Shown here: piece by piece, positions 39,078 through 56,064 of the stretch | How positions within the stretch are numbered: position 1 is the first letter of the stretch | Layout of the letters: every line of letters begins with the position of its first letter | Source: Hyphomicrobiales bacterium | Lineage (GTDB): Bacteria; Pseudomonadota; Alphaproteobacteria; Rhizobiales; Xanthobacteraceae | Reading direction: 5' to 3' | Length of the DNA stretch: 64,000 nucleotides | Assembly (NCBI GenBank): GCA_009377755.1 | Contig: WHTM01000006.1 | Span: 62,001-126,000, forward strand | Program-made: the position numbers and the translations under genes | The notes under the pieces: model-generated | Database searches by the model: none | Told to the model about the DNA's origin: nothing | Seen by the model: only the letters and a program-made list of their open reading frames with translations

Positions 39078-39713
39078 ATGAACGAGACGGACCCGACCGT
39101 GCCTCCGGCGAGTCTCTATTCACTGCTCGCTGGCCGGCGCTCGGTCCGCCGCTATCGTCCCGACCCGGTTCCTGCCGACATCGTGCAGCGGCTGGTGCAG
39201 GCCGCGGCCGCGGCGCCGTCGGCGCACAACCGGCAGCCGTGGCGCTATGTCGTCGTCGAGGATGCGGCCACGAAGGCGAAGCTGGCGCAGGCCATGGGCC
39301 GACAGCTCGCCGAAGACCGCGCTCGCGACGGCGACGACGCCGACGCGATCCGCCTCGACGTGGAGCGCTCGTTTGCCCGCATCACCGGAGCGCCGGTCAT
39401 GATCCTCGCCTGCCTGACGCTCGGCGAGATGGACGCCTATCCCGACCCGAAGCGGCGCGATGCGGAATTCCTCATGGCGGTGCAGAGCACCGCCATGGCG
39501 ACGCAGAACCTGCTGCTGGCGGCGCATGCGGAGGGGCTCGGCGCCTGCTGGATGTGCGCGCCGCTGTTCTGTCCCGATACGGTGCGTGCCGCGCTCACCC
39601 TGCCGGCGGACTGGCAGCCGCAGGGGCTGATCACGCTCGGCTATCCACAACAGCCCGGCAAGGCGCGGCCGCGGAAATCACTGGCCGACATCCTGCTGGT
39701 GTGGTGGATTTGA
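39078..39713 (+). CDS. FbiB C-terminal-like nitroreductase (putative dehydro-F420-0 reductase)
   Basis: A 211-aa FMN nitroreductase-fold protein (LLAGRRSVRRYRPDPVPADI; APSAHNRQPWRYVVVED; AAHAEGLGACWMCAPLFCP; PQGLITLGYP). It matches the C-terminal domain of mycobacterial FbiB, which reduces the dehydro-F420 precursor. The gene follows cofE by 11 bases. Its last four residues before the stop (VWWI) are encoded by the left arm of a hairpin repeat at 39699-39769, which suggests that repeat insertion reset the C-terminus. Confidence 0.88.
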   Translation: MNETDPTVPPASLYSLLAGRRSVRRYRPDPVPADIVQRLVQAAAAAPSAHNRQPWRYVVVEDAATKAKLAQAMGRQLAEDRARDGDDADAIRLDVERSFARITGAPVMILACLTLGEMDAYPDPKRRDAEFLMAVQSTAMATQNLLLAAHAEGLGACWMCAPLFCPDTVRAALTLPADWQPQGLITLGYPQQPGKARPRKSLADILLVWWI

Positions 39714-39769
39714 AGTTCCTGCCATTTTTGCGGCATCCTCTTCGCAGGAACTTCAAATCCAAACCACAC
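39699..39769. repeat. Hairpin repeat, GATTTGAAGTTCCTGC type (locus 1)
   Basis: Arms GTGTGGTGGATTTGAAGTTC and GAACTTCAAATCCAAACCAC. It overlaps the last codons of the nitroreductase gene. A copy of the same type lies at 55899-55975. Confidence 0.8.
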
Positions 39770-39784
39770 TGCTTCATAAGGTTG

Positions 39785-39860
39785 CTAGTGTCGCTATGAT
39801 TCGGAAGTTCGCTCCAGAACGGGCTGTAAACTCAAGCGAACTTCCGAATCGCGACACTAG
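39785..39860. repeat. CTAGTG-ended hairpin repeat, TCCGAAGTTCG type (locus 1)
   Basis: Starts CTAGTGTCGCTATGATTCGG and ends with the complementary CCGAATCGCGACACTAG. It sits 25 bases before cofD and shares its inner arm GGAAGTTCG with the hairpin at 55989-56064. Confidence 0.8.
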
Positions 39861-40824: not shown

Positions 40825-40852
40825 GGTGGGTTAGGCGCGCCGTAACCCACCG
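40821..40852 (+). repeat. REP element of the RAYT family, forward copy
   Basis: GTAGGGTGGGTTAGGCGCGC and continuation closely match the REP at 1983-2015. It contains the cofD stop codon. Confidence 0.75.
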
Positions 40853-40873
40853 TCTGAGTTCGCGGCGAGTCGC

Positions 40874-40911
40874 ATGGTGGGTTACGCGCCTGCGGCGCTA
40901 ACCCACCCTAC
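40874..40911 (-). repeat. REP element of the RAYT family, inverted copy
   Basis: ATGGTGGGTTACGCGCCTGC... GCGCTAACCCACCCTAC, inverted relative to 40821-40852. The pair forms a BIME-like doublet between the convergent cofD and DUF1989 genes and may terminate both. Confidence 0.75.
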
Positions 40912-55733: not shown

Positions 55734-55810
55734 CTAGTGGTCCGATTCCAACATTCGCATCCCGTTTCGGCGCGCGTCTTTGCGAATGTTGGAATCGAAA
55801 GGACCACTAG
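55734..55810. repeat. CTAGTG-ended hairpin repeat a (locus 2)
   Basis: CTAGTGGTCCGATTCCAACA pairs with TGTTGGAATCGAAAGGACCACTAG at the other end. First of four in a row. Confidence 0.8.
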
Positions 55811-55823
55811 CAAGTATAAGTTT

Positions 55824-55902
55824 CTAGTGGAGTTTTGGATTTGACATTCGCGTCGCGCGCGCGCCGCCAGGTGGGTCGCGAATGTCAAATCCACTCCACT
55901 AG
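55824..55902. repeat. CTAGTG-ended hairpin repeat b (locus 2)
   Basis: CTAGTGGAGTTTTGGATTTG pairs with CAAATCCACTCCACTAG; inner arm GACATTCGCG/CGCGAATGTC. Confidence 0.8.
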
Positions 55903-55975
55903 CGCCGCCGATTTGAAGTTCCTGCACCACTTGCGGCAATCTCCTTCAGGAACTTCAAATCGGAAGCGGCACTAG
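55899..55975. repeat. Hairpin repeat c, GATTTGAAGTTCCTG type (locus 2)
   Basis: CGATTTGAAGTTCCTG pairs with CAGGAACTTCAAATCG. It shares its first CTAG with repeat b and matches the repeat at 39699-39769 in type and relative order. Confidence 0.8.
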
Positions 55976-55988
55976 AATCATAGACTTG

Positions 55989-56064
55989 CTAGTGCCCCTT
56001 TGCTTCCGAAGTTCGTGTCGGAACGTGCTGCAATGTATCACGAACTTCGGAAGCAGGGCACTAG
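55989..56064. repeat. CTAGTG-ended hairpin repeat d (locus 2)
   Basis: CTAGTGCCCCTTTGCTTCCG pairs with CGGAAGCAGGGCACTAG; arm TTCCGAAGTTCGTG/CACGAACTTCGGAA. Same type and order as 39785-39860. Confidence 0.8.

Follow-up and report, generated by a model that had tools for sequence, protein, structure and literature searches.

The array of four hairpins beside pxpA in the window analysed here belongs to a family of paired palindromes that is real, class-wide and recently active, and that targets CTAG. The repeating unit of this family is not the single hairpin. It is a doublet of about 160-170 bp, in which a hairpin is followed by a 13-nt spacer and a second hairpin. We think it probable that the doublet is a non-autonomous, REPIN-like mobile element, inserted at CTAG by an enzyme acting in trans. 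By the window we mean the whole stretch of 64,000 nucleotides, G000:C70:62001-126000, where G000 is the source genome.

Architecture of the doublet

Direct reading and a script confirm the four hairpins of the array (a to d) and two further hairpins near 39.7 kb, which together make three doublets: a-b (55734-55902, plus), c-d (55899-56064, minus) and the 39.7 kb doublet (39696-39860, minus).

39696-39771, minus strand: right hairpin of doublet 3, subtype TGGT; overlaps the 3' end of a nitroreductase frame, with the stop at 39713
39772-39784, minus strand: 13-nt spacer of doublet 3; the minus strand reads CAACCTTATGAAG
39785-39860, minus strand: left hairpin of doublet 3, subtype TCGC; directly upstream of cofD
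55734-55810, plus strand: hairpin a, left hairpin of doublet 1; subtype GGTCC, core AACATTC, inner-arm bulge
55811-55823, plus strand: 13-nt spacer of doublet 1, CAAGTATAAGTTT
55824-55902, plus strand: hairpin b, right hairpin of doublet 1; subtype GGAG, core GACATTC, inner-arm bulge
55899-55902, no strand: CTAG common to doublets 1 and 2
55899-55975, minus strand: hairpin c, right hairpin of doublet 2 (reverse orientation); subtype CCGC, outer edge CTAGCG
55976-55988, minus strand: 13-nt spacer of doublet 2; the minus strand reads CAAGTCTATGATT
55989-56064, minus strand: hairpin d, left hairpin of doublet 2, subtype CCCC

Folded as DNA, the six hairpins reach -22.7 to -31 kcal/mol each, with z scores of -7.0 to -9.7, and none of 200 shuffles was equally stable. 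The first-pass annotation, which described four hairpin elements standing head to tail, was therefore right about the hairpins and wrong about the unit, since a-b and c-d are doublets that overlap at CTAG 55899-55902, where one doublet is inserted into the edge CTAG of the other. Its remark that no further copies lie in the window holds, and the rest of the genome is full of them.

Among the loci fetched, the gap between adjacent hairpins is 13 nt in 81 pairs and -4, that is, a common CTAG, in 11. The spacer is conserved, has polarity and reads CAASTNTATGATT in consensus. In the foot columns of the alignment the hairpin edges carry CTAG, apart from a few decayed copies; doublet 3 of the window has decayed edges, with CTGGTG at the left (outside) and CACTG within. 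The inner arm of the left hairpin typically has three to four extra nucleotides, AAA-like, and that of the right hairpin has TTT-like ones, so that the doublet is itself a pseudo-palindrome.

Did hairpins c and d move as a composite between 55.9 and 39.7 kb, as had been proposed? The doublet c-d belongs to an abundant subtype with copies 92-96% identical on other contigs, and the 39.7 kb doublet, at 71.7% identity to c-d, is of a different subtype; the copy closest to it in the part of the genome that was sampled is on C26 (83.5%). Only the architecture recurs, and the proposed transfer is not supported. A proposed tie to the F420 island fails as well, both on gene identity and on genome-wide scatter. 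The a-b/c-d array sits in a divergent intergenic region between pxpB/C (CT_C_D, CT_A_B) and pxpA (LamB_YcsF), and pxpA is a 5-oxoprolinase gene, not an F420 gene; the 39.7 kb doublet lies between cofD and the nitroreductase frame, whose end it supplies. Neither position is peculiar to F420. The genome-wide search that had been recommended found 142 exact matches to CTAGTGN55-75CACTAG in the source genome, against 30 for a reversed-pattern control, which is well beyond chance; they are scattered over the genome rather than bound to the island.

Distribution, mobility and the CTAG target

The doublets are widespread and patchy across the Alphaproteobacteria. In a scan of genome contigs the spacer pattern was found in at least 109 genome stretches from several alphaproteobacterial orders, with titles naming Hyphomicrobiales, Sphingomonadales, Rhodobacteraceae, Acidiphilium and Parvularculaceae, and a few giving only Proteobacteria or Alphaproteobacteria. 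Within the source organism's own family, about 12 other genera show at least two genuine matches each, and the remaining genera only stray ones or none. The number of exact matches runs from 0 to 142 inside a single family. Megaplasmids of Agrobacterium, Martelella, Ochrobactrum and Roseibium carry doublets too; plasmid searches with three doublet subtypes gave no match in Sinorhizobium. Carriage by viruses was considered and rejected, as doublets were present in two IMG/VR contigs and in none of the INPHARED phages.

Within genomes the hairpins are mostly intergenic and avoid long open frames, which contain 13 of 32 hairpins compared with 89% of random positions. In the sampled genome, base composition would lead one to expect about seven times as many CTAG tetranucleotides as there are, and hairpins account for 61 of the 214 that occur.

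That the doublets are mobile, as the first-pass annotation had suspected in calling them short non-autonomous elements that moved as a unit, is borne out by three kinds of observation: many sites hold near-identical copies, one doublet is nested in another, and an empty paralogous site has a single CTAG. Between 20 and 90 almost identical copies are present in single genomes. In Bradyrhizobium sp. LHD-71 (G070) one 26-mer of one subtype is matched 90 times, and the copies read there have unrelated flanks; in another genome, G062, at least 17 doublets, most of them 95-99% identical, are spread over different sites. Copying has thus been recent. Nesting is seen at L219, where a TCC/TGG doublet lies within a CCC/CCG doublet, exactly at the inner CTAG. 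The comparison of empty sites was made at L281, where a repeat is interrupted as ACAAACGAAT-CTAG-[element]-CTAG-AGCGCTTTCC; its intact paralogues at L067 and L267 have a single CTAG, ACGAATCTAGAGCGCTTTCC. In near relatives, too, the positions that correspond to the L175 and L172 insertions read CTAG, and the one that corresponds to L169 reads TTAG. By inspection, the L175 site is the stop codon of a biotin-carboxylase-like frame; doublets can alter gene ends at CTAG stop codons, and they break assemblies. On plasmids, the sites compared were too divergent or were all filled. A second LHD-71 repeat, AGAGCATTTTCCGGAAAAGTGG...CGAATCTAGAGCGCTTTCC (L067:4442, L267:1361, L281:~4080), also carries CTAG and is a doublet target.

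A more conventional explanation is that an ordinary CTAG-targeting DDE insertion sequence, either of the IS630 type (C-TA-G) or of the IS5/IS427 type (YTAR), gave rise to the doublet as a MITE whose long imperfect terminal repeats are palindromic by chance. IS630 prefers CTAG. Two observations speak for this explanation: CTAG on both sides and one CTAG in the empty site fit a 4-bp or TA duplication, and the outer arms of the two hairpins resemble one another as imperfect inverted repeats. IS711 of Brucella, moreover, targets YTAR and favours the Bru-RS palindromes (PMC2266754). Against a plain MITE, four separate palindrome edges and a conserved spacer would be unexpected, and the transposase families concerned are missing from several carrier drafts, as described below. 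We regard the MITE explanation as rather unlikely. The edges bear on it and on our preferred reading alike. Among young copies the left edge is CTAG in 87 of 91 and the right edge in 66 of 81, most right-edge variants being changed at the third base; the right edge is thus more variable than the left, an asymmetry that a simple 4-bp duplication leaves unexplained.

Our preferred reading, the REPIN-like element mobilised in trans, would run as follows. On either side the doublet would end in a long palindrome that extrudes as a DNA hairpin, the two palindromes being related but not the same, and the 13-nt spacer would be nearly all that is left of an element body. An enzyme supplied in trans would recognise both hairpins and insert the element at CTAG, so that both flanks read CTAG. 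Since each edge is again CTAG, elements can stack into arrays. One transposase or recombinase per subtype might act in this way, presumably on folded single strands or cruciforms. Orientation of the doublets shows no bias with respect to local GC skew (38 of 74), and so gives no positive sign of lagging-strand transposition.

Pairing within and between the hairpins

Complementarity of the arms is maintained at the DNA level. In an alignment of 46 diverse doublets, 97.2% of 2247 pair cells are standard, and compensatory change is found in 34 of 49 pairs; when the alignment is slid as a control, the values fall to 25-40%. Arm changes are almost purely Watson-Crick, with G-U in only about 1% of the cells in arm pairs, so that the constraint appears to act on DNA and not on RNA. 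Of 249 distinct hairpins, 222 have an outer perfect arm that stops at 9-10 nt, the site of the one-sided bulge. Complete symmetry is seen in six, where both arms or neither carry the bulge; these suggest that template switching occurs from one arm to the other, and hence that the hairpins do extrude. Arm co-variation can also come from template switching during replication, as these six suggest that it does, and this weighs against our preferred reading.

The left and right hairpins of a doublet also co-vary. They agree at stem-1 position 7 in 36 of 45 cases and at stem-2 position 9 in 45 of 46, a level reached in none of 2000 shuffles for either position. This coupling suggests a single factor that recognises both hairpins, and it is partly explained by common descent of the subtypes. 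The family also offers a natural data set on the evolution of DNA palindromes, in which compensatory change, arm-to-arm correction and the matching of ends can all be followed.

Might the doublets instead be selected regulatory or RNA structures, such as terminators or mRNA ends, duplicated by ordinary means and kept for their function? The hairpins are very stable and mostly intergenic, and some have stayed at the same site in different species (L083 and L103, Phyllobacterium), all of which such a function would fit. The scarcity of G-U pairs, however, argues against selection at the RNA level, no Rfam covariance model matches in the window, near-identical copies have unrelated flanks, and the exact matches in a single family vary in number between 0 and 142. 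We consider this the least probable of the explanations weighed here.

Known repeat systems and the search for a mobiliser

The doublet family works like a REPIN, and yet it fails two defining features of that system, the RAYT gene and the GTAG foot. Like the REPINs and BIMEs mobilised by RAYT (TnpA-REP), doublets are non-autonomous pairs of inverted imperfect hairpins with a tetranucleotide foot, high in copy number, extragenic and mobile as a pair, recurring whole at unrelated sites. They differ in that their hairpins are about 76 nt long, as against 20-40 in REPINs, they have CTAG feet on both sides where REPINs have GTAG on one, and their spacer is nearly fixed at 13 nt. No Y1 gene is linked to them or common among their carriers, and none of the Y1 loci fetched from carrier relatives is flanked by copies of the element. 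The PATEs of Haloquadratum, which derive from IS605 and consist of fused near-terminal palindromes (PMC3119063), likewise have two palindromes and have lost the transposon core, but doublets have longer palindromes and a defined CTAG target, no parental IS605 was found in most carriers, and the doublet ends are not those of the source genome's own IS200. The CGTC- and GTAG-tagged REPs, described as 20-40 bp repeats in a paper that does not mention CTAG (PMC3733652), are also palindromic and extragenic, and the CGTC type too is without an associated transposase. The RIME, ABC and Bru-RS repeats of Rhizobiales, compared here by description and not by sequence, are intergenic palindromes as well, Bru-RS being the preferred IS711 target. 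Integron attC sites are similar as folded single-strand recombination sites with extra-helical bases; by inspection, the doublet hairpin ends lack their RYYYAAC/GTTRRRY boxes. Among open-access papers we found no description of the doublets, though the subscription literature on RIME and Bru-RS may contain one.

What, then, moves the doublets? In the copies read in G062, G068 and G070 there is no gene between the hairpins, and each hairpin end leads to the spacer with its partner hairpin, to a nested doublet or to the end of the contig, so that no autonomous copy was seen in these genomes. Two intervals between close doublets contain no obvious transposase frame, gene clusters beside doublets, compared without annotation, include no obvious transposase as a recurrent family, and no linked transposase was found for the doublets. 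The lack of an autonomous copy and of a linked transposase weighs against our preferred reading.

The resemblance to REPINs makes Y1 transposases the natural candidates, whether as RAYTs (Y1 HUH) moving REP/REPIN elements or as IS605 leaving PATEs behind, and RAYT-like genes are indeed commoner among hairpin carriers than among non-carriers in the relatives of the source genome (G003, G008, G012, G014 and G016), though unlinked. Nevertheless, 15 of 19 other carriers lack Y1_Tnp, an absence that is not certain because these are draft genomes, and the sole copy in G070 has an internal stop. The Y1 loci fetched from carrier relatives have no doublet hairpins alongside, and several have GTAG-ended palindromes. 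The source genome's single IS200-type element (L026:9852-10518, G000:C73; Y1 transposase of 143 aa) itself sits at a doublet's right edge, having inserted within CACTA(G), and its terminal hairpins differ from those of the doublets. Mobilisation by Y1 enzymes is accordingly rejected as the general mechanism, and we hold it to be improbable, only slightly less so than a regulatory function.

Other families fare no better as general mobilisers, again with the caution that copies may be missing from drafts: DDE_3 (IS630) is lacking in G010, G025, G062, G070 and others, IS110 in many carriers, and DUF4096 (IS5/IS427-type) in G070, G073, G080, G081 and G084; DDE_3 and DUF4096 are the DDE families covered. 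G070, with its 26-mer matched 90 times, has in its draft no intact, above-cut-off member of Y1_Tnp, DDE_3, IS110 or DUF4096. One may tentatively go further and propose a class-wide family of paired palindromes whose mobiliser lies outside Y1, IS630, IS110 and IS5/IS427, recognises two co-evolving DNA hairpins of about 76 nt and joins them at CTAG. We rate this fuller proposal as possible but doubtful. Should our reading of the doublets be right, a large repeat family spread across the Alphaproteobacteria, with about 90 copies in at least one genome, would be without a known mobiliser, which could be sought by comparing amplifying genomes.

Several other palindromes were encountered along the way. 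At L356:2608-2965 (G000:C30) there is a chimeric hairpin, in which an a-b doublet was apparently inserted in another doublet, with a subsequent deletion fusion at GGATT. Separate short palindromes with GTAG ends, of the GTAGGGTGGG and GTAGGGCGCAAT types, occur at 40841-40886 of the window and at L035, L036 and L041, and some of them adjoin RAYT-like genes in relatives. Another palindromic repeat family, GGGACCCCGGTT / AACCGGGGTCCC with TGCTGCGCAGA-like flanks, is found at 853-919 of the window and at L015, L020 and L022, and has several copies in the source genome.
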